Below, in pieces: positions 7,387 to 37,592 of a DNA stretch of 37,592 bases. Each line of letters opens with the position of its first letter. The first letter of the stretch is position 1. The stretch is taken from contig NZ_FOIC01000026.1 of NCBI RefSeq assembly GCF_900111485.1, positions 1-37,592 of the forward strand, read 5' to 3'. Below the pieces are notes generated by a model. The model was not told where the DNA came from. It did not search any database and saw only the letters and a program-made list of their open reading frames with translations. Made by a program: the position numbers and the translations under genes. The stretch comes from Natrinema hispanicum (lineage in GTDB: Archaea; Halobacteriota; Halobacteria; Halobacteriales; Natrialbaceae).

Positions 7387-7739
7387 GCGACGCGCCTGTC
7401 GTCGTTGGAGGATACAGCGACGTCCTCGGGTACGACGAACTCTCTTCGAAAGACGAGCTCGCGGTCGTCGACGCGCTGGCCGATACCCGCAGCAGTGAGA
7501 TCGTCGTCTGGGTTCCCGAGTGGCTCGGCGAGGAGAAGTCCATTGAAGCCGCCAGCAGCTCGGACCAGGTATTTGCCGGCGTAGTCGATCACGAGACGGA
7601 GAATGCCTGGTTGATCGTCCAGCCGGGCGGGGCCGAAGACTGGATCCCGAAGAGTCAGGGCGTCATCTTTGAGCGTGCACCTGATGCGACGCTTCCGACA
7701 CCACAGCGGCGTCTAGACAACCAAGGAGGTGCGGCCTGA
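7383..7739 (+). CDS. hypothetical protein, 118 aa, upstream of Rep-like gene
   Basis: The ATG at 7,383 is preceded by a GAGGTG ribosome-binding site and starts MSDAPVVVGGYSDVLGYDEL. Later segments ELAVVDALADTRSSEIVVWV and VVDHETENAWLIVQPG look like a compact alpha/beta domain. The C-terminus is Pro/Arg-rich. No known family. Its stop overlaps the Rep-like start (TGATG, 7,737-7,741), so the two are coupled. A role in replication control is possible from position only. Confidence 0.75.
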   Translation: MSDAPVVVGGYSDVLGYDELSSKDELAVVDALADTRSSEIVVWVPEWLGEEKSIEAASSSDQVFAGVVDHETENAWLIVQPGGAEDWIPKSQGVIFERAPDATLPTPQRRLDNQGGAA

Positions 7740-10700
7740 TGTTCGAGGTCGTCCTCTGCAGGCAGTGCACAAATCCGTGGATCGTCGACGAGCACGACCG
7801 CCGGACACAAGACTCGGTCTCCTGCCCGAACTGTCCAAATGAGGTCACGATGCCGAAGGTGGTCAACCGACAGGAAACAAAGGAACATGCCGCAGAAGCA
7901 CGGGCGCAGTACTTGGCCGAGGAGGCAGACTGCGAGGAAGTCTATACCGACTTCCGCGACGAGTGGGGGCCGTGGAGTGCCCAGCACGAGGCGGTCGAGG
8001 ACCGAACCGCGAAGGTTTCGGACGAAGCGCTTGCTGAGTTCGTCACCGCTGACGAAACGATCTCCCACTACTACGGCGATGCCGACAGCCGCGACGCCCA
8101 TCTGAGCCCTGATACTGAGGACTACCGACATCGGTATCAAGACCTCGCCGACGCGGTCGCCGAACAGACCCGTCTCGAGCACCGTGAGATGTTAACCGAA
8201 CAGGTACCCGATGAGCGAACCAGTTGGGACATCTTTCAGTCACGCGTCGACGAACTGCTCGACGGATTCGCCGAACGACCCGATCCGGACGACCTGCCGC
8301 GGGGCGAGATCACTCCGACCGACCAGACGCTTGCATCGGTCGTCGTCGACCTCGATAAGGATGCAACGGTGACCCATATCTGGGAGCAGTTGTTCGAGAG
8401 TACGCGTGTCCGCGAAGTCCTCGCCGAGTCAGTCCGAGGGGTCCTTGCGGGCCTCGACCCCGCCGAGTGTCACGAGGTTCTTGAGGACGAACACATCCCG
8501 TTCTGGGTCCGGTCACCGATCATCAACGCGGCCCGCGGCGACTCACGGGAAGCGTGGCGGGTTGCCACCGACATTATACCGAAGATGCACGAGCATCCAC
8601 TGGCTGCGACCGAGGACCTACTCGCAACGGCCACGCTGTTCGGAGCTGCCGACACTGGGCTATCGCTGGCTGCGATCGTCCACGAAGAGTGGCTCGACCG
8701 CAAGCGAAGTCAGCGCGAAGATATCTGCGCTCTGTTGGCGGTCCTAGCTGCGAACCTCGATGTCCGCGTCGCTTCAAGTGGGATTGTCCTGCAACAACTG
8801 GCCGATCGGCATCGACTCGACCTTCCCGGCGTTAGCGAGTGGGGGAGTCAACGCCGCACAGAGACTGGCATCGCAGATCTCGTGAACAACGGCGTGGCCG
8901 CGCTCGATCACGACGGTCGAGAAGTTGCAATCCTCCGGACACTCTACGAGGATGATGGCGATGCACTGTCCTACGGGCAACTCTACGCCGAATTCCAGTG
9001 TGATGAGTCTCGTATTCGGCAGTGCATCTCAGAACTCGTGAGCCTCGATCTCATAAATCGGTTCGGTCCGCAGACCAGCCGGATGGTTGAGCTTCTTGAG
9101 GCCGGTGAAGCCGTTCTCGAAACGTTCGACAAGGAAATCGCACGACAGCGCCGGATTGAGTCCTTCGTTAGCGGCGATAGACAAAGCCGTTCGAAGGGCC
9201 GTGTAAACACGCACACGAGATGGGTGGGGGAGGACGGCCCGGAGGAACCGCCGACCGAGGGCGCTGGTCCATGGAAGACCGCCTTCCTCGGCACCGCTGA
9301 CCACGCTGCGGCTGCAGGATCAGCCGCAAACGGCGGTGTGACTCTTGTTCCCAGCAAGATCGAAGCGGAGAATGACCGTGTTCGCCGAGTGAGCTACGAT
9401 TCCGATCGCGACGAAGTTGTCGTTGCTGTTCGAGGAGCCGATCCTACCACATACGTGGCCAGCAGTGCGATTGCGTTAACCTGGCCAACGTTCCTCGAGA
9501 AGGTCTTTGCAAACGATCGTCTCGAGGAGATCGACGATCCGCCGATCATCGTTCGTGAGGCTCGTTGTATCGGTGGGGCGACCGACGACGCCCTCGAGGA
9601 TCAGTCCGAATTCATCAAGAAGCTGGCTGACTGGGGGAAGGAGATCGGCGACATGACCCGCCAATTGAAACACGGCGAGTACGGTGAGTTCGACGGTCGC
9701 AATGCCTTCCGGTCGGAGATCCTCCGGAAGTCGCATGGTCTCTTCGGAACAATGGCCCATCTTCTCGATGCGGTCGGAGTCAACCTTGTTCGGGAGATCC
9801 GCGTCCCGCCAAAGGCTGACAAGGATCGGCAGCTGGGTCAACTCGCCCAGTCGATCGCCGTCTCTGCCGCGATCCAGTCGACGTACAAGGACTGCTTTGC
9901 CTGCTATCGGCAGCTGTTCGAGGGCCGCGAGGAAAAGCGAGAACGGGCCCTCGTCCCGTCCGTCGACGCCACGGATCCGTACGGCGACCTCATCGGCTCG
10001 ATCGTCATCCGAGGTCCGGACATCCACCGCCTCGAGCCGTACCTCCGATCTCGACTTGAGGAACCCGAAGAGGAACACGAGGACGCTCTCGAGATCGCCG
10101 TCGAAGTCCCAGTCGGAACGGTCGGTCGCGACGCCTTTGCCGAGACGGCGGCCCGGATCCTCGGCGAGAAGAACCTTCGGCCGACGTCGGACGCTGTCTC
10201 CCTGTTCCACGCTCTCGTCGAGAGTCCGCACGACGCCGCTGCGGGGATCCACAATCAACTCCGAACCGAAGACGAGCGCCGTGAGGTCCGACCAGACGAG
10301 GTTCGACGAGCGCTCGCCGGTGTCGATGCCGTAGCGCTGTGTCCCGATCTTCCCCGGTCAGTCGGTCCAATCCTCAAAACACTGTTCAAGGCTCGAGAAC
10401 CGCTCTCGAAAGCAGAGCTCTCCGATCGCTCCGGCAAGAGTGAGAAGACGATCGGCCGTCACGAGGACAAACTCGAGGCGCTTGGTCTGCTCGAGATCAC
10501 CGACGGCTACCGTGTCGAACTTTCGTTCCCGGAACAGGCCGAGCGTCGTGCCCCGGTCGTCCCCGAGACCGTCGTGACGGGATCGCTCCTGGACGTCGTC
10601 GACGCGCTGCTCGAGTCGACGCTGTCGCCGGCCCAGTACGCCGATCCCGATGACCCGCTCGGCGGGCTGCTGTGGGATCCGCCGAACCCTGGCGGTATCC

Positions 10701-10861
10701 TCGAGGACGACGATCTCGGCCAGTGGGGCGAGCTCGCCGTCCGATTGCTCGATATCGAACTGAGTGACCAGGGGCCATCGACTGTCTCGATGGGGCCTGG
10801 CCCGGCGGTGATCCAGGAACCACTACCGACGGCTGGCGACCCAACGGAGGTGTCCGGTTGA
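7739..10861 (+). CDS. large plasmid protein with N-terminal zinc ribbon; candidate RepH-like replication protein, 1,040 aa
   Basis: The N-terminus MFEVVLCRQCTNPWIV plus CPNC at residues 29-32 forms a zinc ribbon like haloarchaeal DUF5817. Then comes a long acidic, mainly helical body. One winged-helix-like segment lies near residues 400-445 (ILRTLYEDDGDALSYGQL then CISELVSLDLINRF). Another lies near 880-925 (ILKTLFKAREPLSKAELSDR then IGRHEDKLEALGLLEI). No Walker, primase or HUH motif was seen. The size (about 113-115 kDa), acidity and large-plasmid context fit RepH of pNRC100/pHH1-type plasmids, but I cannot confirm homology by eye. It is central gene of a coupled operon with a ParB-fold gene. 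Confidence 0.85.
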   Translation: MFEVVLCRQCTNPWIVDEHDRRTQDSVSCPNCPNEVTMPKVVNRQETKEHAAEARAQYLAEEADCEEVYTDFRDEWGPWSAQHEAVEDRTAKVSDEALAEFVTADETISHYYGDADSRDAHLSPDTEDYRHRYQDLADAVAEQTRLEHREMLTEQVPDERTSWDIFQSRVDELLDGFAERPDPDDLPRGEITPTDQTLASVVVDLDKDATVTHIWEQLFESTRVREVLAESVRGVLAGLDPAECHEVLEDEHIPFWVRSPIINAARGDSREAWRVATDIIPKMHEHPLAATEDLLATATLFGAADTGLSLAAIVHEEWLDRKRSQREDICALLAVLAANLDVRVASSGIVLQQLADRHRLDLPGVSEWGSQRRTETGIADLVNNGVAALDHDGREVAILRTLYEDDGDALSYGQLYAEFQCDESRIRQCISELVSLDLINRFGPQTSRMVELLEAGEAVLETFDKEIARQRRIESFVSGDRQSRSKGRVNTHTRWVGEDGPEEPPTEGAGPWKTAFLGTADHAAAAGSAANGGVTLVPSKIEAENDRVRRVSYDSDRDEVVVAVRGADPTTYVASSAIALTWPTFLEKVFANDRLEEIDDPPIIVREARCIGGATDDALEDQSEFIKKLADWGKEIGDMTRQLKHGEYGEFDGRNAFRSEILRKSHGLFGTMAHLLDAVGVNLVREIRVPPKADKDRQLGQLAQSIAVSAAIQSTYKDCFACYRQLFEGREEKRERALVPSVDATDPYGDLIGSIVIRGPDIHRLEPYLRSRLEEPEEEHEDALEIAVEVPVGTVGRDAFAETAARILGEKNLRPTSDAVSLFHALVESPHDAAAGIHNQLRTEDERREVRPDEVRRALAGVDAVALCPDLPRSVGPILKTLFKAREPLSKAELSDRSGKSEKTIGRHEDKLEALGLLEITDGYRVELSFPEQAERRAPVVPETVVTGSLLDVVDALLESTLSPAQYADPDDPLGGLLWDPPNPGGILEDDDLGQWGELAVRLLDIELSDQGPSTVSMGPGPAVIQEPLPTAGDPTEVSG

Positions 10862-11178: not shown

Positions 11179-11570
11179 GCGCCTTCGAGGATACCCACGA
11201 ACTTTGGCAGAACGCCCTCGAGCACGACGACGTCCACACGGTCGCAGGTCCGACCTCGATCGAGACGCTCTTGGAAGCACGCGACCACTTCGAGCAGCTG
11301 GGCAACGAGCGTCGCGATGGTTGCCTCGTCATCTCACTCGAGATGGCTCGCAAGATTCCACGGGGCTGGGTCGAGATCGACCATGATACACTGCCCGATG
11401 GCCACGAGGAGTTCCGCCCACTCGAGGACATGACCACAATCACGACCCGCGGTGGCAGCCCCGAAACGTTCATTTGTCGACCGGATGCCGTCTCCCTGGA
11501 CATAACATTTCTCGAGCCCAACGACGTCGTTGCGATCGACTTCGAGCGAGGTGAGTTCGATGCAGAGTGA
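11175..11570 (+). CDS. hypothetical protein, 131 aa, in Rep operon
   Basis: Soluble, acidic protein. Helical N-terminus (MSAFEDTHELWQNALEHDD) and HFEQLGNERRDGCLVISLEM, then a beta-rich second half (ITTRGGSPETFICRPD; DVVAIDFERGEF). No family recognised. Coupled at both ends: ATGA with the AbrB-like gene, and its stop lies inside the first codons of the ParB-fold gene. Position suggests a role with Rep or ParB, which is inference only. Confidence 0.78.
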   Translation: MSAFEDTHELWQNALEHDDVHTVAGPTSIETLLEARDHFEQLGNERRDGCLVISLEMARKIPRGWVEIDHDTLPDGHEEFRPLEDMTTITTRGGSPETFICRPDAVSLDITFLEPNDVVAIDFERGEFDAE

Positions 11571-12306
11571 TACGAACATCACCGTCGGCATGATCGTCGA
11601 GGACTGGGACAAAACCTCATCATGCGGCGTCGTCGTCAACTATCCGCCGATCCCAGCCGAGGACTGGTATGTTCAGGGCCGCGGCCTCCTTTCGGAGGAC
11701 AACCCTGATTACCCAGCGGACGACCGAACGGCGATTGTCATCTTTGAGGACGACCTCGAGGAGCACTATCCCGAATACTCGGGCTACGAGGGCATCCCAA
11801 TGGCACAACTCAACGCCGACGATGCGCCCTACTATGCGTTCCCTGAGTCACGCCTTCGACGAGTCGGCGAACTTAAGCAACCCGAGCTCGCCCTGGAAGC
11901 GATCGATCCGTCGCCGTACCACGCGCGAAACTTCGATGCCGAGGCGAACCGCGACTATATCGACGCGATCGCCGAGCGTGGCCGCCCGAAACCACTCCCA
12001 GTCGTCCGCCCGCTAGCTGACGGCGAGTACGAGATCCTCAACGGTCACAAGCGCATCTGGGCGTCGCATGTCGTCGGCCTCGAGGAGATCCCGGTCGCGG
12101 TCCTCCCGCTGGACAATGTCCGCGCGGCCCAGTACTGGGCCCAACGTCATCTCCCGGGATACAACCAACGTGAACGTGCGGTCGCACTCAATCGTCTACA
12201 CGATCAACTGAATTCGATGACAGTCGGTGAGATCCGCCGAGAGCACTGCTCAAGCGACGACAGTCCGCAACCAATCGCAGCCAAAACGGACGGAGGACAG
12301 CAATGA
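11560..12306 (+). CDS. ParB/sulfiredoxin-fold nuclease-domain protein, 248 aa
   Basis: An N-terminal domain of about 105 residues, strand-rich and acidic, is followed by a ParB-like domain at about 110-185: LEAIDPSPYHARNFDAEANR, then DAIAERGRPKPLPVVRP, then YEILNGHKRIWASHVVGLEE. NGHKRIWAS corresponds to the G-H-R-R/E-R-R box of ParB-N proteins, and the following segment is helical. The start was chosen at ATG 11,560 (MQSDTN), which has GAGGTGAG upstream; the ATG at 11,530 would overlap the previous gene by 41 bases. It could be a partition protein or a ParB-fold nuclease/CTPase. ParA is encoded far away at 25.2 kb. Confidence 0.85.
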   Translation: MQSDTNITVGMIVEDWDKTSSCGVVVNYPPIPAEDWYVQGRGLLSEDNPDYPADDRTAIVIFEDDLEEHYPEYSGYEGIPMAQLNADDAPYYAFPESRLRRVGELKQPELALEAIDPSPYHARNFDAEANRDYIDAIAERGRPKPLPVVRPLADGEYEILNGHKRIWASHVVGLEEIPVAVLPLDNVRAAQYWAQRHLPGYNQRERAVALNRLHDQLNSMTVGEIRREHCSSDDSPQPIAAKTDGGQQ

Positions 12307-12853
12307 GAAAAACAGGTTTGGCTGGCTCATTGGTGCGTAAACTGGCTAAAAATGCCTAAGGGTCTGTTTGACTATTGGCTCAAACAGCGGTTGTGAAACA
12401 GGTGTCGGTCATCGATACGCTTGCTGTGAGTGAAACAGAAGCTAAAGAACTGAAAGATGCTCTAAAATAGTGTGTTCGAGTGCTTTCGTCTTTCTTCCAT
12501 ACAGCTATCGCTGCTGCCTCAACCATCTGAAATGTGATATTTTGGGATATGATTTCTTCTTTCCGGGATTGGTTGACTATTTAAATTATAAAACCCGTTG
12601 TAACACAGTGCGACGCTCGGAGGAGAGTTCATTGTTCTCTAGAAGCACTCGGGTATGTGAGACATCCGATGAGCTCTTGATCGCACTGGCGGTGGCCACC
12701 AATGACAGAAGGCGCGCTATGACAATCCTGCCTGCAGCGAACACGCCGTGACACCCCGCTCGTGGGGAGGTTTCTGAGGTTCTGTGTTGTCCACGTGGGC
12801 ACGATGGGCGATGCCGAGAAATATTTTCACCACCGGTGTTGCTCGTTGACCGG
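12307..12853. other. non-coding region with a short frame remnant and AATGACAGA motif
   Basis: Nothing here reads as a complete gene. From a GTG at 12,395 to TAG at 12,469 a 24-residue frame (VKQVSVIDTLAVSETEAKEL) looks like the tail of a lost gene. The segment 12,480-12,620 is AT-rich. AATGACAGA occurs at 12,701-12,709 and again at 13,008-13,016, 13,037-13,045 and, as CATGACAGA, at 13,066-13,074. The longer frames at 12,470-12,751 and 12,762-13,070 have odd composition and run through these repeats, so I do not call them genes. Confidence 0.45.
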
Positions 12854-13438
12854 TTCTAGAAACAACACACCTCATGGAGGAACTCGGAATCACCTTTCCA
12901 CGAAACAATCAATCCCATGGACTTCCCTCTCGAGGACGATCGCGGTACCAGCCGACCGAACATTTCTCGGAACCGCCTATTGCGCGCGTGATGGCGGTGC
13001 ATCCACTAATGACAGACCTGCCGCTAACGATCCATCAATGACAGACCCCTCTCTGACGACCATGCCATGACAGATTCGTCCGGGCCGGAGATCTAGAACC
13101 AACACACCTCATGGAGGACATGCCGAGGTCCCTAGAATCAACTCACCCCATGGCAGAAACGGAGATCTAGAAACAAACACAACCTCATGGGAACAGCGGG
13201 TGCTCGCCGATCGACCGGATCGTCTTGGGGAAACAATCAACCCCATGGCCGCTTGGTTCGACGTCCTCGAGGGCCGCTTGTTCTAGGAACCCTATGGACC
13301 CCTGTTTCTCTAGGGCACCCCATGGGCCGGTGGCGCTCTCTAGAAACAGACTCACCTCATGGAGGACGGGTCGAGGTTTTTAGAAACAAACACACCCCAT
13401 GGCAGAAACAGGTGGGATCTAGAACCAACTCAACCTAG
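12854..13438 (+). repeat. cluster of eleven TCTAGAAACAA...CCCATGG repeats; candidate origin iterons
   Basis: Same-strand units start at about 12,854, 12,896, 13,092, 13,131, 13,166, 13,224, 13,281, 13,307, 13,339, 13,377 and 13,418. The consensus is TTCTAGAAACAACACACC followed by YCATGG, about 26 bp; 13,281 and 13,307 are shortened. Spacing is irregular (26-196 bp), so this is not CRISPR. The TTC-TAG-GAAAC-like dyad, a C-rich run and a unit reading TTCCACGAAACAATC recall Orc1/Cdc6-binding ORB elements, which have a dyad plus a G/C-run. No Orc1/Cdc6 gene is on this element, so host initiators would be needed. A further copy lies at 19,633-19,659. Confidence 0.65.
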
Positions 13439-13576: not shown

Positions 13577-14962
13577 TCACTCGAGAGACTGCTCGGGCAT
13601 TTCCAAGCCGATCTCATCGGCAGCCTTCGCTACGCGATCGGCGATGCTGGTGGGGCGGTCACCGAGCCCGACCATGAACAGGTGGCTGTTAAGCTCGGCA
13701 AATCGACTGTCACCCCCTCGCTCACGTGCGTCGAGTTCGTCGGCGACGAATTCACCGTAGGCCGTCAGCTCCCACCCGTCAGGGTTTTGCTCGAGAATGG
13801 GCCTCCACGACCGTTCTGCCAGTTCTTTCTGACCTGCTAGGCTGTTACAGAGTGCAGTGACCACACTCTTGTGTGAGTCAGTTGCGACCTTCTGGGCGAT
13901 CGTCGACGATCGGAGTGGGCTGTCGGCGTTGTAGATGGCTTTCACGACCGTGGCGGCACTGATACCTTTCCACCCAGCATCTTCTAGTTCCACCACATCT
14001 TCATAGACTCTCTCGGCTATTTCAGCTTTCGTCGCAAGGTTATACTCCTTGACAATCGCAAGGAGATCTTCTCGAGTTACGAGTTCGTCGGGATCGATCT
14101 CAGGCAGGGGGCCATACTGGCGAGCGAAAAGTGCCTGCTGCCCGGCAGTTCCCAGTCGGTTCGAGAGAAGATCCTCGGATGGGGGGTCCTCGGTTAGCCG
14201 GTCGACCAGAAGGGTGTAGACCCCTCGGGGGTCGATCCCCCGTGCGAATTCTTCCGGTGGTGTGAGGTTGTCCTCGACTTCGATTCCGTCGGCGTCGTTC
14301 AGGACTTCGCGGATGTGCTCTTGGATCTCCCGTTCGGCTTCTCGCGACGCTTCGCGCTGTTCTCGAATCCCCTCGTGGAAAGAGATCGCCTCCTCATCGT
14401 ATTTGAGTTCGGTTTCGAGGCGTTCCTTCAGGTATTCGATAATTCCCTCGATGGCCTCGTGCCGGGGCTCACCCAGTTGAGCGCCATCACTAGGATCAAG
14501 AAACAGGCCATGGAGGAATCCCCATGCCATATCTTCTCTGGTCTGTTCGTGTTCGTCGATCCCATCCGGAAAGAGCATGAGCATAAAGAGCAGTTGCCCG
14601 AACTTCCGAGCGAGTTTCTGTGGGGCCGATGTCGGGCGTGACCCGCCCACGTCCGCGTGAAGATGGCTCTCTGCAATGACCTCGGCCCACTCGTCGTCCT
14701 CGTCGAACCCCATTAGATTGGTCCAAGCGTCGGCGTAGTGCTCTTCGTCGAGATAGCCGTTCTCATGGAGCAGTTCGACGTCAGAGAATAGTCGGTCGAA
14801 GCGCTCTCCAAGCTGATCGATCTTCTTTTGCACGTCTTGTTCGAGCTTTGCCTCTCGGTAATTTCCTGTCTCTCCAACTGAAACGTACTCCCGCTGCAGT
14901 CCACTCAGCGGGAAAGACGGCGGTCGGCTATACCGGTCTGGGGATGAATTGTCATCTGCCAT
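13577..14962 (-). CDS. hypothetical protein with C-terminal winged-helix-like region, 461 aa
   Basis: Large acidic soluble protein, not assigned to a family. Residues about 30-175 are helical (KKIDQLGERFDRLFSDVELL; KFGQLLFMLMLFPDGID). About 180-230 is a charged coiled-coil-like segment rich in Glu/Arg (REQREASREAEREIQEHIRE). Residues about 310-415 look like two winged-helix units (LLAIVKEYNLATKAEIAERV; LRSSTIAQKVATDSHKSVV). The gene ends next to the repeat cluster 12.8-13.4 kb, so a DNA-binding or replication role is attractive but unproven. It diverges from the tail-like operon at 15,017. Confidence 0.82.
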   Translation of the reverse strand: MADDNSSPDRYSRPPSFPLSGLQREYVSVGETGNYREAKLEQDVQKKIDQLGERFDRLFSDVELLHENGYLDEEHYADAWTNLMGFDEDDEWAEVIAESHLHADVGGSRPTSAPQKLARKFGQLLFMLMLFPDGIDEHEQTREDMAWGFLHGLFLDPSDGAQLGEPRHEAIEGIIEYLKERLETELKYDEEAISFHEGIREQREASREAEREIQEHIREVLNDADGIEVEDNLTPPEEFARGIDPRGVYTLLVDRLTEDPPSEDLLSNRLGTAGQQALFARQYGPLPEIDPDELVTREDLLAIVKEYNLATKAEIAERVYEDVVELEDAGWKGISAATVVKAIYNADSPLRSSTIAQKVATDSHKSVVTALCNSLAGQKELAERSWRPILEQNPDGWELTAYGEFVADELDARERGGDSRFAELNSHLFMVGLGDRPTSIADRVAKAADEIGLEMPEQSLE

Positions 14963-15168: not shown

Positions 15169-15318
15169 ATGTCCAAATCCAACGATACACAACCTGATGG
15201 CGGCGAAGACGAGGAAGAGTACATCACCAAAAGAGAAGCAGAGCAACTTGTTGATGAGAAGACCCGTGACATCAAGCGGAAGCTTGACAGCATCGAACGC
15301 GCCCTGCGAGAGAAGTAG
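15169..15318 (+). CDS. small charged coiled-coil protein, 49 aa
   Basis: Protein of 49 residues: acidic N-terminus (MSKSNDTQPDGGEDEEEY), then a continuous charged helix (ITKREAEQLVDEKTRDIKRK, LDSIERALREK) with heptad-like hydrophobic positions. Five bases separate it from the tail-chaperone-like gene. The C-terminal helix resembles that of the tape-measure-like protein downstream (LDRLERAFK), suggesting a small coiled-coil partner. No known family. Confidence 0.65.
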   Translation: MSKSNDTQPDGGEDEEEYITKREAEQLVDEKTRDIKRKLDSIERALREK

Positions 15319-15323
15319 ATACT

Positions 15324-15920
15324 ATGCCACGATACGCTGAAACATACGACTTGTCTGAGGAGAAGGAACGGATCGACAAACGACTCGATACCCTCGCTGA
15401 CAGAACAAGCGAGATTGAGCAACAGATGGATGAATTGGGTGAAGACGAGGACCTCAACCAAGGACAGCTCCACGAGTATCGAGAAATCGTCCAAGAAGGG
15501 AATCAGCTTGAACAGATGTACGCTGGTGTCCAGTGGGCACTCAATCCTGATGGTGACCAAGAGCCGATCGAAGAGGTGACGCTTGGCTCGCTCACTGCTG
15601 GGGAGTACGCCGAAGTTGGCGACAAACTCCAAGCAGCCAAACAGCAGAGATCTGGGTGGGGCTGGGGGACAAATCCTGACCTCGACAACGCTCGTCGAAA
15701 CATGTTCGCTGCGGCATGCCTCCAGGATGCATCTTTCCTCGCGGAGGAAGATCCCGATTTCGAAACCAAGATCCGTGTCGTTACCGACCTTGCACCGGCG
15801 TTCATTCACTGGCTCGAAAAGAAAGGAGATGAACTTACTACTCCAGAGGTGGAGGGAAACGGATTCAGAAAGCGGGTCGAGGAAAGGAGAACAGTCTCGA
15901 CGCCCAAATCGCGTACATAA
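15324..15920 (+). CDS. tail assembly chaperone-like protein (gpG analogue), 198 aa, frame 0 product
   Basis: The N-terminal part is a long charged coiled coil (LSEEKERIDKRLDTLADRTS, EIEQQMDELGEDEDL, YREIVQEGNQLEQMYAGVQW). Then comes a helical domain: LTAGEYAEVGDKLQAAKQQR, a GWGWG turn, NARRNMFAAACLQDASFLAE, and AFIHWLEKK. The role is inferred from architecture: it directly precedes a tape-measure-like gene, and its 3' end carries a -1 slippery site that opens a second frame, as lambda gpG/gpGT do. Terminating in frame 0 adds 19 residues after the slip site. No direct homologue recognised. Confidence 0.7.
   Translation: MPRYAETYDLSEEKERIDKRLDTLADRTSEIEQQMDELGEDEDLNQGQLHEYREIVQEGNQLEQMYAGVQWALNPDGDQEPIEEVTLGSLTAGEYAEVGDKLQAAKQQRSGWGWGTNPDLDNARRNMFAAACLQDASFLAEEDPDFETKIRVVTDLAPAFIHWLEKKGDELTTPEVEGNGFRKRVEERRTVSTPKSRT
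15854..15904 (+). promoter_or_regulatory. programmed -1 ribosomal frameshift site, GGGAAAC plus downstream stem-loop
   Basis: GGGAAAC at 15,854-15,860 is read in frame 0 as G GGA AAC, exactly the X XXY YYZ form; lambda G/GT uses GGGAAAG. A stem GTCGAG (15,876-15,881) / CTCGAC (15,896-15,901), extended by GG/CC across a one-base bulge, starts 14-16 nt downstream. The -1 frame is open from 15,833 to 16,051, so slippage here gives a 243-residue fusion. Seen directly: heptamer, phase, hairpin and open frame. Frameshifting itself is inferred. Confidence 0.75.
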
Positions 15921-16054
15921 GAGGACTGCTCATGCGCTATGGCCACCATCCCCGTGACATCGACGACTACACTTGGAAAGACATCCAGGAATTCGTCGCA
16001 GCACTGCCAGCAGCTTGGGAGAACGAGAACCTAGCGGGACTGGGTGGTAAGTGA
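15860..16054 (+). CDS. -1 frame extension (gpT-like) of the tail chaperone, 64 codons
   Basis: Read as join(15324..15860,15860..16054), giving 179 plus 64 residues. The extension includes SLDAQIAYIRGLLMRYGHHP, then RDIDDYTWKDIQEFVAALPA. This Y-G-x-x-P-x-D-I-D-x-x-T-W-x-D-I pattern is what gpT-type tail chaperone extensions look like. It has no strong start of its own; ATG 15,932 would give only 40 residues. Its TGA overlaps the tape-measure ATG (TGATG, 16,052-16,056). That coupling only makes sense if this frame is translated. Confidence 0.7.
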   Translation, partial: RIQKAGRGKENSLDAQIAYIRGLLMRYGHHPRDIDDYTWKDIQEFVAALPAAWENENLAGLGGK

Positions 16055-17325
16055 TGACGGAGTTCAGCACGACAGCGTACCTCGATCTCCAAGTTGATCA
16101 AGGAGGTCTCCGTTCAGCGCGCAAGGAGATAGAAGATAAGCTCACCAGTGACCCGATTCAAGTTGAGGTCGAACCGGTCAACTCGGGACGCGTAGCATCG
16201 AGTTCAGAAGCACTCTCGTCAAACACCGAAACAAGTAGCAGCGGAAACGGTGGAAGCAACAAGCTTCTGGAGCACCAGAATTCGATGCTCAACAACATCG
16301 ATTCCCACTGGAGTGAGAACATCGAGCTGAACGACACACGGAATGATCTTCTCCGGCAGCTCCTCGACGAAACTGAGAAAGGCAATACGACAGTCCGGGG
16401 TCGAATGGGCCGCGGTCTCATGGGCGGCGGTGCTATCGGTCTGATGATCGGTGGAACTTTGCTCAGTAAACTCCCTAATCTCGATCTACCAAAACTCAAG
16501 GTTCCGGATATTCCACCGCTGAAGGCTCCTGATATCGACCCTCTTGAGGTGCCGGATATCCCACCACTTGACATTCCTGACGTTCCAGAGCCCACTTGGT
16601 TACCGATTGAGGTACCAAAGCCAGACTGGATCCCTATTCCGCCACCAGAACTACCAGAGATGCCTGTACAGCCAGAAATTCCATCATCGACTCCGTCACC
16701 AGGCCCAATTCCCGTACCCGGTAGTCCAGATGGTAATACGCCTGGCATTCCAAACATCAATCCTCCTGATGTCAATGTCCCAGAAATCTCTCCGGGTGCT
16801 ATTGCGGCAGGTGGCGCAGCAGCAGGTGCTGCTAGTTGGCTCGCACAAAGAGGCACCACGATCGGGCGGGGAGCTAGCGCCCCAGGCGTTGTCTCTGACC
16901 CCGAAACAATAGAAGACGTGATGAACGCCCCTGACACTCTGAGAAATGCTTCAAGAGGACAGTCTGAAGGTCACAAGAAACTTGATCAACTAACCAATGG
17001 CCTTGGCATCCCGAGCTTTGACGAGTGGCCAGGATACGTTGGCCCTGACCGGGATGGTTCTGGAGGATCGTCGGGTGGGGGTATGAACATCAATATCCCA
17101 TCTGTCAGTAGAAACGATCTCAGTAATGCAATGCCCTCGGTCAACAAGAAGGATTTAGAGGAAATTGCCAGTCAAGACATTGAGTTCACTGTGAAACCGA
17201 ATATCAATGTCTCTGCCGACGGCGTCTCTAAGAAAGATGTTGAGCGGGAGGTAAAAGAAGCCACGTCACAGGTGGAAAGAGAAGTATCGAAAAGGCTCGA
17301 TCGACTCGAACGAGCGTTCAAATAA
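16054..17325 (+). CDS. short tape-measure-like protein with Pro-rich centre, 423 aa
   Basis: The N-terminus TEFSTTAYLDLQVDQGGLRS, then ARKEIEDKL, has the start typical of tape-measure proteins (a strand followed by x-G-L-x-x-A-x-x-E-I). Residues about 95-125 are helical and a Gly-rich hydrophobic segment GLMGGGAIGLMIGGTLL follows. About 145-250 is a Pro-rich repeat (PDIPPLKAPDIDPLEVPDIP). A second hydrophobic GAIAAGGAAAGAASWL follows (about 250-265). The C-terminus is a coiled coil (DVEREVKEATSQVEREVSKR). The start is ATG 16,054, not GTG 16,051. It is much shorter than usual tape measures. No capsid or portal gene is nearby. Confidence 0.75.
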   Translation: MTEFSTTAYLDLQVDQGGLRSARKEIEDKLTSDPIQVEVEPVNSGRVASSSEALSSNTETSSSGNGGSNKLLEHQNSMLNNIDSHWSENIELNDTRNDLLRQLLDETEKGNTTVRGRMGRGLMGGGAIGLMIGGTLLSKLPNLDLPKLKVPDIPPLKAPDIDPLEVPDIPPLDIPDVPEPTWLPIEVPKPDWIPIPPPELPEMPVQPEIPSSTPSPGPIPVPGSPDGNTPGIPNINPPDVNVPEISPGAIAAGGAAAGAASWLAQRGTTIGRGASAPGVVSDPETIEDVMNAPDTLRNASRGQSEGHKKLDQLTNGLGIPSFDEWPGYVGPDRDGSGGSSGGGMNINIPSVSRNDLSNAMPSVNKKDLEEIASQDIEFTVKPNINVSADGVSKKDVEREVKEATSQVEREVSKRLDRLERAFK

Positions 17326-17364: not shown

Positions 17365-18105
17365 ATGGATCGACGTTCCTTCCTTCGCCATTCTCTCACA
17401 GCATCAATCGCAATCGGCGCAGGGTGTGTTTCTTCGAACAGCACCGATTTGCCCGATAATAACAGTAGCTCACCTGAGAACTCAACTGATAGGAGCAACT
17501 CTGACGGCGGCAAGAAAGCCCTCGAGGTAGTTGAGAACGAACTCATCCATACGGGAAGTGGCGAGACTGCGGAGGTGAAAGTCTGCGCAGTAGTAGAGAA
17601 CGTCTCTCCAAACGCGCTTGGACAAGTCGTTGCATCTGCCACGTTCATCGAGGATGGAGCGCTACTCAGTAGCTGGGTCGTCACGGCTAATGGGATGGAT
17701 CCGGGACAGCGTTGGGAATTTGATATCCGCAGCGGAGGGGCGACGGGCGAAGATGCGCAAGCGGTTGACGATGTCCAACTTGATGTCGAGGAACGAGTCT
17801 CAGTAGCTGACTACGGTTCAGATAGAATCGAGATCGTCGAGAATGAGCTCGTCCGCGACGAAAACAACATCATCGTCGAGGGAGTGGCGAAGAACGCCGG
17901 CGATGAGCGCTTGGAGTACGCGACGATCGTGGCCACCTTCGTCGACACTGACGATGTCCTGGTTGGTCGGGCGCTCACTCATACCGTCCGTGACGTCGAT
18001 CCAGATCAGCGCTTCAAGTTCAGCATTCGCTACAGCGCTCGGGTTCGGGACCCTGCTGACATCGACGATTATCAACTAACCGCACACCATCGTGTTGAAA
18101 AGTAG
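17365..18105 (+). CDS. Tat lipoprotein with two FxLYD-like domains, 246 aa
   Basis: MDRRSFLRHSLTASIAIGAGC is a twin-Arg signal ending in a lipobox. A Ser/Asn/Asp linker follows to about residue 50. Two similar domains then begin with ALEVVENELI (about 52) and IEIVENELVR (about 153). Both continue with N-x-S/A-x-x-x-L, a TFIEDG or TFVDTDD turn and a W/F-x-F-D/S-I-R strand, so the protein is an internal duplication. It begins 40 bp after the tape-measure-like gene and may be co-transcribed with it. Its 3' end overlaps the antisense integrase relic. Confidence 0.87.
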   Translation: MDRRSFLRHSLTASIAIGAGCVSSNSTDLPDNNSSSPENSTDRSNSDGGKKALEVVENELIHTGSGETAEVKVCAVVENVSPNALGQVVASATFIEDGALLSSWVVTANGMDPGQRWEFDIRSGGATGEDAQAVDDVQLDVEERVSVADYGSDRIEIVENELVRDENNIIVEGVAKNAGDERLEYATIVATFVDTDDVLVGRALTHTVRDVDPDQRFKFSIRYSARVRDPADIDDYQLTAHHRVEK

Positions 18106-21447: not shown

Positions 21448-22575
21448 TTAGTCGAAGAGCCCGAACGTGTAGATATTGTTCACGTATGGCTCCCGAATCT
21501 TGACGCCCCATTCGTCGTGCTGGTAGATCTCGTCCATGACCTTTTCCTCGAGCACGTCTCCACGGATGTATTTCACCAGATCGTCGGGCAGATGGCCATC
21601 GTGGTCGCTACGATACCGTTTCATCTGTGTCCGGAAGAAGTGCCTGCAGTAGTGAAGGTCGAAGTCTGACCGGCCAGATCCCACTTCGGTCAACCCAAAT
21701 TCGGCTCCTTTCTCGGTCACGAGCTTGTTGTAGACGGTGTGCGGGCTGATCCGATCGTACGTCCACCCGATGGGTTTGAGTTGTGGGAACAGCGGGTGGG
21801 GCGGGCTCGTGTCTGGTCGCACAGTGAGGTACTGGAGCGTCGCTTGCACGAGCTCGTCGTCCATCGGGAGGATCGCTTCGTGCGTCCGCTTGTTTCCAGT
21901 CTCTCGTTTCTCACCGCGGACGACGTCTCCTCCGTTGAATCCGCCGTAGATGTAGATCGAGTCTGGGTGATCTTTCACGTTCTCGTGCAACTCGATGCCG
22001 CGTTGTTCCAGGAATTCGTAGTATCGGGGATCGTCGATGTGGACGCAGTCGAGATCAATATTTACGCCTGCACCCCTCCGAAGTCCATATTTCAGGTAGT
22101 AGAGTGCCATCGTCTGAAGCTGCGGATGTTTGATCGAGCGGAGGTACTCACCCATCTCTTCAACGGTGTGGTAGTCTCGATCGGGAGAGGAGACGTCTGC
22201 ATCGGTCCGACTGAGAACGTAGCCTGCAGGATTCGAGTCCGTCTGGTTGTAGAGGTGCATCATCTCGCTGTAGAACGTCGAGATCTCGGTCAAGCGATTG
22301 AGCATGTCTCTCTCGGAGTTCTTCTCACGGATGTGGTCCCGGAAGTCGAAGAGATCAAACACGGTTGCCTCCAGGACATCAACATCGCGCTGATCGAGGA
22401 ACTGGCGCAGTCCGGTTTCATTCTTGTTTTCAGTTAGCTTACGCTCCAATTCTTCAATCGTTTTATCTGCAACGTCCTCACGGCATTTCAGGGAGAGCCA
22501 ATCATCCACTGGATCGCCATCGAAGTGCTCTTCAATGTCGATTTTCCCATAGCCACTCATTCTGTCATCGTCCAT
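21448..22575 (-). CDS. tyrosine recombinase (integrase), 375 aa
   Basis: Complete haloarchaeal phage-type integrase. An N-terminal SAM-like helical domain covers about 25-120 (VDDWLSLKCREDVADKTIEE; FYSEMMHLYNQ). The catalytic domain covers about 140-375: YYLKYGLRRGAGVNIDLDCV with the first Arg (166/167), GNKRTHEAILP with a probable Lys at 229, LHYCRHFFRTQM with H308-x-x-R311, then YQHDEWG (H353). The nucleophile is Y364 or Y369. It catalyses site-specific integration or excision; here it may serve the element or resolve multimers. Its start overlaps the small RHH gene upstream by 19 bases. No attachment site was identified. Confidence 0.92.
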   Translation of the reverse strand: MDDDRMSGYGKIDIEEHFDGDPVDDWLSLKCREDVADKTIEELERKLTENKNETGLRQFLDQRDVDVLEATVFDLFDFRDHIREKNSERDMLNRLTEISTFYSEMMHLYNQTDSNPAGYVLSRTDADVSSPDRDYHTVEEMGEYLRSIKHPQLQTMALYYLKYGLRRGAGVNIDLDCVHIDDPRYYEFLEQRGIELHENVKDHPDSIYIYGGFNGGDVVRGEKRETGNKRTHEAILPMDDELVQATLQYLTVRPDTSPPHPLFPQLKPIGWTYDRISPHTVYNKLVTEKGAEFGLTEVGSGRSDFDLHYCRHFFRTQMKRYRSDHDGHLPDDLVKYIRGDVLEEKVMDEIYQHDEWGVKIREPYVNNIYTFGLFD

Positions 22576-24851: not shown

Positions 24852-25245
24852 CGATCCCACTCCCTTCGAACTGCTCGGCCTCTTTTCGTATCTCCTCGGC
24901 GTCCATCTCTTCGAGAGTGTCGAGTCCTTTCTGGACGATCATTGGGTACCAGTGCATCAACTTCTCGAGCGGGTCTTCGCCAGCTTGCCGAAGTTCAACA
25001 TTGGTAGAATCAAGTTGGAGATCAAGCTGGTCCATCAACTCTTCAGAGAGGTGGATCTGCTTTGGCCCCCAGTCTTCTCGCTGTTTTACTGGAGTGACTG
25101 TCTTATCTCTCTTATCTGTAGGATCTCGTTTGTCTGGTTTTACTGGATTGTCTGCATTGTCTGGCTCCCCTCGTTTTACCGGGTCGGCCTTCTCAGACGT
25201 TCGACGACGACGTTCACGGAGCCGGTCAGAGCGATCATCAGACAT
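24844..25245 (-). CDS. putative ParA partner protein, 133 aa
   Basis: The N-terminal 55 residues are basic, Lys/Arg/Asp-rich and contain three PVK repeats (NADNPVKPDKRD; TVTPVKQRED). The C-terminal half is helical (QIHLSEELMDQLDLQLDSTN; LEKLMHWYPMIVQKGLDTL). The start overlaps the ParA stop by eight bases, the usual place for a centromere-binding partner. A basic flexible tail and small helical body would suit a ParB/ParG-type role. It is not similar to canonical ParB. Its coding DNA carries three GTTTTACYGG motifs. Confidence 0.7.
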   Translation of the reverse strand: MSDDRSDRLRERRRRTSEKADPVKRGEPDNADNPVKPDKRDPTDKRDKTVTPVKQREDWGPKQIHLSEELMDQLDLQLDSTNVELRQAGEDPLEKLMHWYPMIVQKGLDTLEEMDAEEIRKEAEQFEGSGIDD

Positions 25246-26041
25246 CGCCCCACACCTCCGCTTCATCGAAGTGTGCGGCAACGTCGGTGGCGATCGCCTC
25301 GAACACATCGCACATATCGCTCTCCGGGTTGTACGCGAGCAGCGACTCGCCGGCCTCGAGCGACTTCTGAATGTCCGCTCGTTCCCGGATCCGCCAGACC
25401 GGCGTGTCGGGGTACGCATCTTCGATCCAGTCAACCATCTCTTGGGCCTGCTTCTTCCGGACGTCGATCCGGTTGATCGCCACCCCGACCTCCTCGATCG
25501 AGATTTCGTAGTCCGTCTCGAGAGCGCCAATGTGATCATACAGGAGTTCGAACGCGCGCTTGCTCGTAGACTCAGCGAGTGCGGGAATGAGCACGTGCCG
25601 GCAAGCGAACAGAGCGTTGTCGGTGAGATTCCCGAGCTGCGGCGGACAGTCCACGATGATGTAATCGTAGTCATCTTCGACGTATTCGAGCAGCAGATTC
25701 AGTTGCTCTCCGCTTCGGCGCGATAGCGTGAGCTCTGGCTCGACCGCAGTCATGTCGATATTCGAGGGTAGGACATCCATCTCCTCGTGCTCGCGGATGA
25801 TGTCGGTGACTGCGTCGCGCTGCTCGGCGTCGGTGAGACAGTCGAACAGCGTTGGTGGTTCGTCTTCGTACGCTTCGGGCATCCCAACGTCTTCGGTGGC
25901 GTTGCCCTGTGGGTCGAGGTCGACGAGGAGCGTGTCCTGGCCGGCGGCGTTTAGCGCGGCTGCAGTGTTGATAGCGACCGTCGTCTTCCCGACTCCCCCC
26001 TTCTGTTGAACGACACAAACCCGGTTAGCTGGTGAATCCAT
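25238..26041 (-). CDS. parA: ParA-family partition ATPase, 267 aa
   Basis: The deviant Walker A KGGVGKTT lies at residues 14-21, followed by LLVDLDPQGNATEDVG (about 38-53, switch I), YIIVDCPPQLGNLTDNAL (Walker B, about 130-147) and a typical ParA C-terminus (VGVAINRIDVRKKQAQEMVD). ParA ATPases position plasmids through dynamic association with nucleoid DNA and a ParB-type partner. The length is standard for plasmid type Ib-like ParA without an N-terminal HTH. The promoter region has a GCCAGT/ACTGGC dyad directly before the start. Confidence 0.95.
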   Translation of the reverse strand: MDSPANRVCVVQQKGGVGKTTVAINTAAALNAAGQDTLLVDLDPQGNATEDVGMPEAYEDEPPTLFDCLTDAEQRDAVTDIIREHEEMDVLPSNIDMTAVEPELTLSRRSGEQLNLLLEYVEDDYDYIIVDCPPQLGNLTDNALFACRHVLIPALAESTSKRAFELLYDHIGALETDYEISIEEVGVAINRIDVRKKQAQEMVDWIEDAYPDTPVWRIRERADIQKSLEAGESLLAYNPESDMCDVFEAIATDVAAHFDEAEVWGDV

Positions 26042-27306: not shown

Positions 27307-27617
27307 CAGGTCCCCTCCTGTCCGATGGCAAACCGACACTTAAGGATCGCTTCAGTCAAACCCTCGTGCCGAATGCGTTCGTGATCGATAGATGCGTTCA
27401 GCACAGCGTCGAGACTTGAGACAAGATTGGCCACATCCGCTTGGATGTCCCGATCCTCGCCAACAACCACATCGATCGAGGCAAGACAGCGGCCATCATC
27501 GGTCTCGAGCCAGGTGTTCTCGACGCGGTAGCCACGGTCTGTTAGCCACTCGAAGACTGTCGCGAGCGCCCTGGCATCCTGCGCTGTGACTTCTGTTTCG
27601 GATTCGTCGTCAGTCAT
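27306..27617 (-). CDS. hypothetical protein, 103 aa, in HerA operon
   Basis: Acidic alpha/beta protein: ARALATVFEWLTDRGYRVEN (helix), TWLETDDGRCLASIDVVVGE (strands), DIQADVANLVSSLDAVLNAS (helix), then ILKCRFAIGQ. No family recognised. Start and stop overlap both neighbours by four bases, so it is translated together with the HerA-like ATPase. It may be an adaptor for the ATPase; this is inference from coupling. Confidence 0.78.
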   Translation of the reverse strand: MTDDESETEVTAQDARALATVFEWLTDRGYRVENTWLETDDGRCLASIDVVVGEDRDIQADVANLVSSLDAVLNASIDHERIRHEGLTEAILKCRFAIGQEGT

Positions 27618-29407
27618 AGTTCTTCCATCAACTGCTCAGTCTTCTTGCGCTCCGCTACAGCCTGCCGGACTTGTTCAATGCCATCGGCGTTCAGATCAAC
27701 CATCATCCCGTCATCGCCTCGGTCTTTCGTGACGATTTTCCGCCGCTCGAGTTCCGACGCGGCTTTCGAAACGTCCGACGTCGTCGAGACACCGAGACGT
27801 TCGGCGATCGCCTCGTAGGAGACGGGCCCGCCCTCGGCGACGATCCCCACAATGACTCCCTTCACGTAGCGCGGCGACGCACCACACTCAGCCTTCGCGG
27901 TCTCGATCTCCGCTTGGACCACCTCGAGCGTCAGGAAGTCCTCGTAGGACTCGAGTTGCTCGCCGATATCCGCGTCGGCCTGGGCCCGCAGCCGCTCGTT
28001 CTCCGCTTTGAGGTCGTCAATCCGCTCTTGTAGTCGTTCGAGTTCGGCACTGTCGGCCCCACGGTCGCCCGCAGCGGGTGGCGGCGCTGTCGTCTCGGCT
28101 TCGACCTCGACGCCGAGGACCTCACGGGCCTGTTCGAGTTGTTGCTCGATCTCTTCGGCACGCTCGATGCGATCCGCCGCGATCTGGAGACGGTCGACCT
28201 CCCGCTCGAGGTCGTCGACGCGACCGCGCAGCTGGTCGCGCTCGTCGACGACGTCGTCCAGGCGCGACTCGAGCTCACGGATCCGTTCGTTTTTCGCCTC
28301 GATCTGGGCGTCGAAGTCTTCGGGGACCGCGTCGCCGGCGTCGGTCCCGTTCTGTAGCGCGGCCGCCATCTGCTGGGCGGCGTCCGCGATGTTTTGCTGG
28401 TTCTCGAGTTCCGCTTCGAGTTCTTCGATTCGTTCGTCGCGCTGCTCGAGTTGTTCCTCGAGGCGCTCGATCTCGTCGCGACGCTGGTCGGCTCGGTCGG
28501 AGATTTCCTCGAGGTCGCCCAAGAGGTCCTCGTCGAGCGACTTCAACTCGGGCCGCTCGACGTCCTCGAGGCCAGGGGTTGCGCCGGCGTCGAAGGTCCG
28601 CTTCCGGCGCACCTGGACACGCTCGACGTCAGCCTCGCGCCAGTCAGCCTGCAGGAACGCCTCCCCGTCGGCGAGGTCGCCGACCGCGTCGGCACTCTCA
28701 GCGTCGACGACACGCCGGACGACCGTGGTGTCGTTGTCCCAGGTGAGCCGGTGCCAGAGCAGCCAGTTGGCCTGCGTGATGAAGTCCTTCTTAACGTCGG
28801 CGGGGCGCTGGCTGATTCCGGCGATCCCGAGCCCGTGCTTACGGCCGCGCTTCGAGATCTTGATCAGCATCTGGCCGACGTCGTCGAGGCCGCCGCCCTC
28901 GGGAACGTACTCGTGGATCTCCTCAACGACCAGTAGGAACGGCGTCTTCAGGTCCTTCTCGCGGACGAAGAGCTCGCAGGCTGTCTCCCGGATCAGGTCG
29001 TTCGCGACGTCGTCCTCGAGGTAGCCCGAGACGTCGAGGATAATCGGGACGCCGTCCTCGAGGGCGAGTTGGGCAAGCTTGCCCGCGTGTTCGGGACCGA
29101 CCTGGATGTCGGCCTGTTCGTCAGCGCCGGCGTGCAGGATCTCGTAGGACTCCTTGAGGCCGTAGTACTCACCGTCCGTGTCGACGATCAACAGCGGATA
29201 GCCCGCCTCGAGGAGTTCTTCCGCGACGACGCTCGCTGAGTTGGACTTCCCCGAGCCGGATTTCCCAGTGATGAACGCACGGCCGGTGAGCAATTCGACG
29301 ATCGGGAGCTCGACGAGTTGGCCATCGACGGTCTCACCGATCCTGATCGTTTCCTCTGTGGTATCGGTGGCGGCCTCGTTGTCGCCGTCAGTATTCGTCG
29401 TACTCAT
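27614..29407 (-). CDS. HerA-like ATPase with coiled coil and C-terminal winged helix, 597 aa
   Basis: The N-terminal RecA-type motor has Walker A GKSGSGKS (residues 48-55), DTDGEYYGL (about 76-84), Walker B LLVVEEIHEYV (158-168) and ISQRPADVKKDF (198-209), the HerA/FtsK-type sensor segment. Residues about 300-470 are an almost pure coiled coil (LEEQLEQRDERIEELEAELE). The C-terminus (about 500-590) is a winged helix (PVSYEAIAERLGVSTTSDVS). Unlike chromosomal HerA there is no N-terminal HAS barrel of full length. It is probably a hexameric DNA pump or plasmid-maintenance/mobilisation ATPase. ATG 29,407 chosen; ATG 29,419 is possible. Confidence 0.93.
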   Translation of the reverse strand: MSTTNTDGDNEAATDTTEETIRIGETVDGQLVELPIVELLTGRAFITGKSGSGKSNSASVVAEELLEAGYPLLIVDTDGEYYGLKESYEILHAGADEQADIQVGPEHAGKLAQLALEDGVPIILDVSGYLEDDVANDLIRETACELFVREKDLKTPFLLVVEEIHEYVPEGGGLDDVGQMLIKISKRGRKHGLGIAGISQRPADVKKDFITQANWLLWHRLTWDNDTTVVRRVVDAESADAVGDLADGEAFLQADWREADVERVQVRRKRTFDAGATPGLEDVERPELKSLDEDLLGDLEEISDRADQRRDEIERLEEQLEQRDERIEELEAELENQQNIADAAQQMAAALQNGTDAGDAVPEDFDAQIEAKNERIRELESRLDDVVDERDQLRGRVDDLEREVDRLQIAADRIERAEEIEQQLEQAREVLGVEVEAETTAPPPAAGDRGADSAELERLQERIDDLKAENERLRAQADADIGEQLESYEDFLTLEVVQAEIETAKAECGASPRYVKGVIVGIVAEGGPVSYEAIAERLGVSTTSDVSKAASELERRKIVTKDRGDDGMMVDLNADGIEQVRQAVAERKKTEQLMEEL

Positions 29408-29645
29408 TGGCCGTCCCATCGGCTGAATTGTCTTCTTCTAGTGCTTCCAAAAGGTCCGATTCAATCTGCTCAAGTTCGTTTTTCGCCTCTTCTCGCTGGT
29501 TTCTCAAGCTACGTTCCCAGCTGTCGCTTCGGTCGATCTCCGGGAGAACCTCCTCAATCTCAAAATCAAGTCTGTCGATTTTGATTTCCAGATGAGTCTT
29601 CTGCTTTTCAAGGAACTCTACCCGGTCGAACTCATCACTCGTCAT
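29388..29645 (-). CDS. coiled-coil protein, 85 aa, in HerA operon
   Basis: Charged helical protein: FDRVEFLEKQKTHLEIKIDR, LDFEIEEVLPEIDRSD, RSLRNQREEAKNELEQIESD. Two helices separated by a short break, with heptad-like leucines. It overlaps the HNH gene (upstream, 11 bases) and the HerA gene (downstream, 20 bases). It is likely to pair with the coiled coil of the HerA-like protein, which is inference. No named family. Confidence 0.75.
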   Translation of the reverse strand: MTSDEFDRVEFLEKQKTHLEIKIDRLDFEIEEVLPEIDRSDSWERSLRNQREEAKNELEQIESDLLEALEEDNSADGTANEYDEY

Positions 29646-35639: not shown

Positions 35640-35760
35640 TGACTATTTGTCACCACTGTCAGTTCAATAGCGATAGCTGGATACACTACGGCAACTTGGC
35701 GTTGCTACTACTTCGCCCGCTGTCTCGAGCAATGACCTTGCGACTATCTCCGATCGTTTA
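35640..35760 (-). ncRNA. possible TnpB guide (omega/re) RNA and right end
   Basis: TnpB nucleases use an RNA transcribed from the 3' end of tnpB into the element's right end. In that place on the minus strand there is a hairpin GCAAC-GCCAA-GTTGC (about 35,690-35,704), followed by a stretch ending near TATTGAACT. The exact right end and guide cannot be fixed by eye, so the interval is approximate. Confidence 0.3.
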
Positions 35761-37498: not shown

Positions 37499-37592
37499 GT
37501 TCGAGATAGACCCTTGTGGGGCCGAAGACTCGAGTCGAACGTCGTCAGCGACGTCCCGCTCGAGTTCGAGATAGACCCTTGTGGGGCCGAAG
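37499..37592 (+). repeat. terminal redundancy identical to 1-94
   Basis: The last 94 bases equal the first 94 (repeat, spacer 1, repeat of the CRISPR array). The simplest reading is an assembly overlap of a circular molecule with a true length of 37,498 bp. It is not an inverted terminal repeat. Alternatively a linear fragment could carry a duplicated repeat-spacer unit at both ends, which is less likely. Confidence 0.88.

Follow-up and report, generated by a model that had tools for sequence, protein, structure and literature searches.

Results

Two overlapping frames and a predicted slip site

The locus at positions 15324-16054 of the window (the whole stretch of DNA analysed here, 37,592 nt from Natrinema hispanicum) raises the question of whether one mRNA of a haloarchaeal element gives two tail assembly chaperones by −1 ribosomal frameshifting, and what such a pair could serve where no other virion genes but a tape-measure-like gene are recognised. 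A first reading, made from the sequence only, had proposed that a GGGAAAC heptamer in phase G GGA AAC joins a gpG-like and a gpT-like frame. The features concerned are as follows.

15169-15318, forward strand: 49-aa ORF, coiled-coil-like, just 5' of G; no clear relative (E 0.014-0.045 at best), and it may not be a gene
15324-15920, forward strand: G, gpG-like tail assembly chaperone with a zero-frame product of 198 aa; homologue of BJ1 ORF61 and phrog_19457
15854-15860, forward strand: slippery heptamer GGGAAAC in phase G GGA AAC; a slippery heptamer is kept in 40 of 40 homologues
15860-16054, forward strand: T, the −1 frame extension of 64 aa plus stop; predicted G-T product of 243 aa
15873-15905, forward strand: predicted bulged hairpin 3' of the slip site, not conserved; putative stimulator
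16054-17325, forward strand: tape-measure-like protein of 423 aa, a homologue of the gene that follows G/T in BJ1, CGphi46, pBOL4-2_49.8 and elsewhere

G runs from the ATG at 15324 to the zero-frame stop TAA at 15918-15920, and the heptamer lies 21 codons ahead of that stop. The −1 frame is open from 15833 to 16051, passes through GGGAAAC and ends with the TGA at 16052-16054, whose last base is also the first of the ATG of the tape-measure-like gene (16054). Recomputation gave the same coordinates, phase and one-base overlap as the sequence-only reading, and also the same junction, in which 179 residues of G are followed by RIQKAGRGK and the rest of T to a total of 243 aa. Bare GGGAAAC occurs four times in the window against 3.69 expected, and since this count is unremarkable, the single sequence would not prove a slip site.

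The slip site is conserved as nucleotides among homologous loci

We found relatives of G by protein searches in the Halorubrum viruses BJ1 and CGphi46, in Halobacterium sp. BOL4-2 (plasmid pBOL4-2_49.8) and in numerous haloarchaeal genomes. The homologue set comprised 40 gpG-like loci with a median pairwise identity of 29% (30 clusters at 70% identity, nine at 40%), compared after each locus had been oriented correctly. A slippery heptamer of the form X XXY YYZ is present in the same phase and place in all 40, between 40 and 109 nt before the zero-frame stop, as GGGAAAC in 36 loci, GGGAAAT in two, AAAAAAC in one and AAAAAAT in one, while the codons flanking it vary freely. The alignment of homologous loci had been suggested with the original proposal as a check on it, together with outcomes that would speak against the slip site, and among the 40 homologues we found none that lacks the site and none in which the two frames are fused. 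An IMG/VR contig beyond this set (L101) carries GGGAAAC too.

GGA is the rarest glycine codon in these genes (10.8% of Gly codons), and the glycine at the slip site is nevertheless encoded by GGA in 38 of 38 cases, each with a G as the preceding base; this combination is found in every member of 28 of the 30 clusters at 70% identity and of seven of the nine at 40%. With the proteins fixed and the codons redrawn from pooled usage, an in-phase slippery heptamer in the last 40 codons has a mean probability of 0.076 per gene, and GGA with a preceding G has, given the glycine, a joint probability of 0.038; as the homologous sequences are related, products of such probabilities serve as a guide only. 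In the two lineages that have changed, both codons were swapped, to A AAA AAC and A AAA AAT, so that glycine became lysine and slipperiness was kept. The invariance of GGA and its preceding G, the lysine cases with slippery AAAAAAC or AAAAAAT and the variable flanks together argue for selection on the nucleotides for slipping rather than on the peptide. In two near-identical provirus copies (L036, G048:C7, and L034, G042:C24) we observed an in-frame duplication of ~30 codons in G (205 versus 175 aa) with the slip site intact.

The −1 frame encodes a conserved T domain

Straight after the heptamer, the −1 frame of the homologues reads as a common motif, (R/L)xxLxRxxRG(E/D), and continues into a helical domain that contains GHxP. 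This T domain is conserved over 28 diverse rows of the alignment, and past the zero-frame stop the −1 frame is conserved at the protein level, with most variation at third codon positions. The open −1 frame of seven homologues starts just 0-3 nt ahead of the heptamer, which confines the shift in these loci to the stretch between the heptamer and the zero-frame stop.

T could alternatively be made without frameshifting, either from a start of its own at the internal in-frame ATG at 15932 or by translational coupling. A methionine is found at this place in some relatives, and it is missing from BJ1, CGphi46 and many proviruses, so the independent start that would have spoken against the frameshift is not conserved. 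The conservation of the −1 frame moreover begins right after the heptamer, upstream of ATG 15932, and the invariant slippery heptamer would go unexplained, all of which makes this route very improbable. Least likely of all is that heptamer and split frames arose by chance or as an indel scar in a broken gene, with T as dead sequence: the expected frequency of GGGAAAC in the window and a circle bare of other virion genes would suit it, but the split recurs in the same phase and with the same type of heptamer in 40 homologues whose median identity is about 29%, and this and the protein-level conservation of the −1 frame refute it for the family as a whole.

The predicted hairpin downstream of the slip site is less convincing than the site itself. 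The sequence-only reading had placed a bulged stem-loop at 15874-15904, and this does fold (−9.6 kcal/mol, z −1.6), but it is not conserved, and downstream of the slip sites of the 40 homologues we detected no excess of structure over control stretches (mean z −0.54 versus −0.17, p 0.18). The hairpin is therefore unproven as a stimulator.

Gene order and predicted fold point to G as a probable tail assembly chaperone

In BJ1, CGphi46, the Halobacterium plasmid-provirus and many haloarchaeal proviruses, the homologues sit between the tail tube and tape-measure genes, all of them with the slip site, and the order in relatives is neck-type protein, tail tube, G/T and tape measure. The tail tube gene is just upstream of G in 38 of the 40 loci. 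In the window, G/T is directly upstream of the tape-measure-like gene, whose homologues hold the same place in the relatives.

Structure prediction lends this assignment guarded support. G was modelled with AlphaFold2 at a mean pLDDT of 80, and in VIA-align the model aligned with the HK97 tail assembly chaperone 2ob9 (Z 7.8, rmsd 3.2, 93 of 107 residues, model residues 1-173) and with YqbN 3klu (Z 6.3, 94 of 119 residues); Z values below 8 can be unspecific for a helical protein, but both alignments span the domain in full and are in keeping with the gene order. Among BFVD models it matched the HCTV-1 tail assembly chaperone (E 1.5e-3, probability 1.00). T was modelled with modest confidence (pLDDT 73) and showed no PDB match.

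Other searches were negative within their scope. Neither G nor T has a Pfam model, Foldseek gave no significant match to either in the PDB, no fold could be assigned to T, and the sequence search of the PDB returned only coiled coils and weak chance-like matches. The IMG/VR single-protein scan with G gave no match, and the broad homologue alignment (A2) contained no stretch conserved enough for scanning. Low-scoring tblastn matches to coiled-coil proteins (L012, L016, L019, L022 and L054) were rejected as unrelated. Taken together, gene order, the slip site in all relatives and the resemblance of the G model to the HK97 and HCTV-1 chaperones strongly support the G/GT-like arrangement at 15324-16054, in front of a tape measure, that had been proposed from the sequence.

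Proposed mechanism

We consider it highly probable (about 0.92) that one mRNA gives two tail assembly chaperones by a predicted −1 slip on GGGAAAC. Most ribosomes would read G in the zero frame to the TAA at 15918 and release the 198-aa product, whereas in a minority the tRNA-Gly on GGA and the tRNA-Asn on AAC would move back by one base on the heptamer, and these ribosomes would go on from CGG at 15860 to the TGA at 16052, giving the 243-aa G-T protein. The presumed efficiency of slippage would set a G : G-T ratio with many G and few G-T, which by analogy with lambda may coat the tape-measure protein encoded next, while the T part would recruit tail tube subunits. For this circle such subunits would have to be supplied by another virus, or else the cassette may be the well-kept remnant of a plasmid-provirus. 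As the window contains no tail tube gene, the downstream role is uncertain here.

The replicon and its other genes

The window is a whole contig with a terminal repeat of 94 bases (1-94 and 37499-37592) and is probably a circle. The repeat is exactly one repeat-spacer-repeat unit of a CRISPR-like array, which makes closure of the circle likely rather than certain. The array (37499-37592 and 1-226) spans the circle junction; its 29-base repeats, GTTCGAGATAGACCCTTGTGGGGCCGAAG, alternate with 36-38-base spacers, and one end has degenerate copies. Other contigs of the same genome (C44 and C28) carry related repeats, and the central 24-base pieces of three spacers had no exact match in IMG/VR. The genes that we could annotate outside the G/T locus are the following.

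7739-10861, forward strand: RepH-type replication protein of 1040 aa; phrog_17376, E 6.6e-103; repH of phiH, PhiCh1, ChaoS9 and haloarchaeal plasmids
11551-12306, forward strand: ParB-like protein; ParB_N, E 7.3e-9
13577-14962, reverse strand: 461-aa protein, oriented divergently beside the cassette; adjoins G in Halorubrum halodurans and precedes tail tube-G in Halorhabdus amylolytica
17365-18105, forward strand: lipoprotein of 246 aa; its counterpart on the Halorhabdus amylolytica contig lies at the equivalent position (48% identity)
21448-22575, reverse strand: integrase-like protein; phrog_1, E 1.5e-8
25238-26041, reverse strand: ParA-like ATPase; AAA_31, E 1.2e-41
27614-29419: HerA-like ATPase of 601 aa with a long coiled coil; Pfam DUF87/HerA, and one PHROG match named terminase large subunit (E 2.4e-17) over one domain only
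35744-36913: TnpB-like protein with a Cas12f1-like TNB domain (E 3.1e-20); probably belongs to an insertion element

The ChaoS9 match to RepH covers 85% at 31% identity. The 461-aa protein belongs to no Pfam family, has relatives in many haloarchaeal genomes and holds a fixed place beside G/T in two other genera. Lipoprotein genes also occur in several complete proviruses, either between T and the tape measure or before G, perhaps as an exclusion factor. In a non-coding-looking stretch at 12820-13430, near the ParB-like gene, a motif like TCTAGAAACAAACACACCCCATGG recurs as many near-copies that may be iterons or binding sites. The ~3 kb that follow position 18105 hold few convincing genes.

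A tail cassette without recognised tube or capsid genes

The window is thus a mobile element with RepH, ParA and ParB-like proteins and with a chaperone and tape measure of its own, in which we recognised no tube, capsid, portal or terminase gene. Of the structural proteins of BJ1 and pBOL4-2, only G and the tape measure found a convincing match in the window, and searches of the rest of the genome for an MCP or tail tube of the BJ1 kind found neither (genome G246 served as positive control for MCP). The lack of recognised MCP, portal and tail tube genes of the BJ1 kind in the window, with no MCP or tube found genome-wide, speaks against a complete Graaviviridae-like virus or provirus. That the cassette stands alone on a plasmid, with no other recognised virion genes, had been missed by the earlier reading.

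Two relatives share parts of this layout. Contig0022 of Halorubrum halodurans (G277:C22, L099) encodes the 461-aa neighbour, G with GGGAAAC, T, tape measure and lipoprotein, and has no tail tube; an MCP-like match is found on another contig of that genome. Scaffold22 of Halorhabdus amylolytica (G324:C15, L100) encodes a RepH relative, the 461-aa neighbour, a tail tube, G, T, tape measure and lipoprotein. Because these two contigs are drafts, the absence of virion genes from them weighs less than the same absence from the circle. The cassettes of the window and Halorubrum halodurans are sisters in the tree (95/89), their G proteins are 45% identical, and in G, T and tape measure their differences are rarest at second codon positions and most frequent at third ones, a pattern that bears the signs of purifying selection.

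The leading explanation, which we hold tentatively and at somewhat less than even odds, is that the cassette of G, T, tape measure and lipoprotein is the remnant of a RepH plasmid-provirus that lost its head and tube genes, with frameshifting an ancestral trait of no present use. In its favour, complete relatives of the plasmid-provirus kind are known (pBOL4-2_49.8), RepH is used by the proviruses phiH, PhiCh1 and ChaoS9 as well, Halorhabdus amylolytica keeps the tube beside G, and the absences from the window and the genome listed above fit such a loss. Less easily reconciled with it are the intact state of every ORF and of the slip site, the equally tube-less sister cassette of Halorubrum halodurans with the same neighbour, and the scarcity of substitutions at second codon positions between the two.

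A second explanation is that the plasmid is a satellite, whose own chaperones and ruler would serve to assemble chimeric tails with a helper halovirus's tube and heads, or would disturb that helper. According to a 2026 study, the satellite PLE11 of V. cholerae encodes both a tail assembly chaperone and a tape measure, is reported to form chimeric tails with helper parts, and was the only satellite reported to encode a tape measure (PMC12987554). The window resembles PLE11 in being a mobile element that brings a chaperone and tape measure of its own (PMC12987554); unlike it, PLE11 is bacterial, has a known helper (ICP1) and encodes a baseplate hub too, and its chimeric tails are only a hypothesis for the window. 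Because the minimal set here, chaperone and tape measure with no tube, is the same in kind as that of PLE11 (PMC12987554), a satellite is a real possibility, and the tube-less recurrence of the cassette with its 461-aa neighbour in a second genus and the signs of purifying selection point the same way. No helper is known, however, the window's genome has no MCP-type relative, tube-less cases number only two, and genes missing from the two draft-contig relatives could lie elsewhere. We accordingly regard this explanation as unlikely, and a relic of a plasmid-provirus such as pBOL4-2_49.8 as more likely. If the plasmid is a satellite, a RepH plasmid that keeps a frameshifted chaperone pair and a tape measure would be an archaeal counterpart of the PLE-type satellites and, as far as the literature found shows, the first archaeal tailed-virus satellite known with a tape measure.

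Somewhat more doubtful still is that the window is a complete plasmid-provirus with head, tube and packaging genes too diverged to recognise. Several genes lack a known family, and the 601-aa ATPase has the match named terminase large subunit; but Pfam places this protein with HerA (DUF87), the terminase-named match is confined to one domain, the structural genes of full relatives are conserved enough to detect one another easily, and the ~3 kb behind the cassette are poor in convincing genes.

The choice between relic and satellite leaves the verdict on frameshifting unaffected. A tail cassette on plasmids without the rest of the tail poses a second testable question, that of archaeal virus satellites.

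Comparison with known frameshift systems

The locus resembles lambda G/GT in having a short ORF before the tape measure, a −1 heptamer of the GGGAAAX type near its end (GGGAAAG in lambda, GGGAAAC here) and a short overlapping T frame; it differs in its archaeal host, and we found no detectable sequence similarity to lambda. BJ1 ORF61 and CGphi46 gp51 (Graaviviridae) are sequence homologues with GGGAAAC, a T frame and a tape-measure homologue, but the viruses themselves are complete, having tail tube, capsid and portal. None of the BJ1, CGphi46 and pBOL4-2 records annotates the T frame, and our literature search found no paper naming the BJ1 slip site; BJ1-like viruses and proviruses gain an unannotated predicted G-T product.

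The chaperone of HCTV-1 (Druskaviridae) shares heptamer, phase and gene place with G and appears similar in predicted fold, and its joined frameshift CDS, examined as a control, carries GGGAAAC in this phase a short way ahead of the zero-frame stop. HCTV-1 is a complete virus of a different family, and tblastn found no similarity at E 0.01. Frameshifting of the −1 type has been predicted for HVTV-1, HCTV-1, HCTV-2 and HCTV-5, with the sites G_GGA_AAC in HCTV-1, A_AAA_AAC in HCTV-2 and G_GGA_AAG in HCTV-5 (PMC5009743). For HrrHc1_110/115 of Hardycor1 the published prediction is a −1 site G GGA AAT at the same gene place (PMC7911831), and two homologues of the window's G share GGGAAAT.

The sequence-only reading had called experimental archaeal −1 frameshifting little described. 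Of demonstrated cases, a 2021 review names in its abstract a single reported one, fucA of Saccharolobus solfataricus (PMC8211752); the halovirus sites were single-virus predictions. Predictions of archaeal G/GT frameshifting go back to 2013 (see the reviews PMC5009743 and PMC8211752), so the novelty is smaller than had been supposed. The fucA case is likewise an archaeal −1 frameshift, but in a cellular enzyme gene with one full-length product and an unrelated site. The window's site joins the halovirus −1 sites already predicted, with comparative support much stronger than that of the single-virus predictions, and as the 40 loci keep a slippery heptamer without exception, swaps included, slippage of the archaeal ribosome becomes directly testable in Haloferax volcanii.
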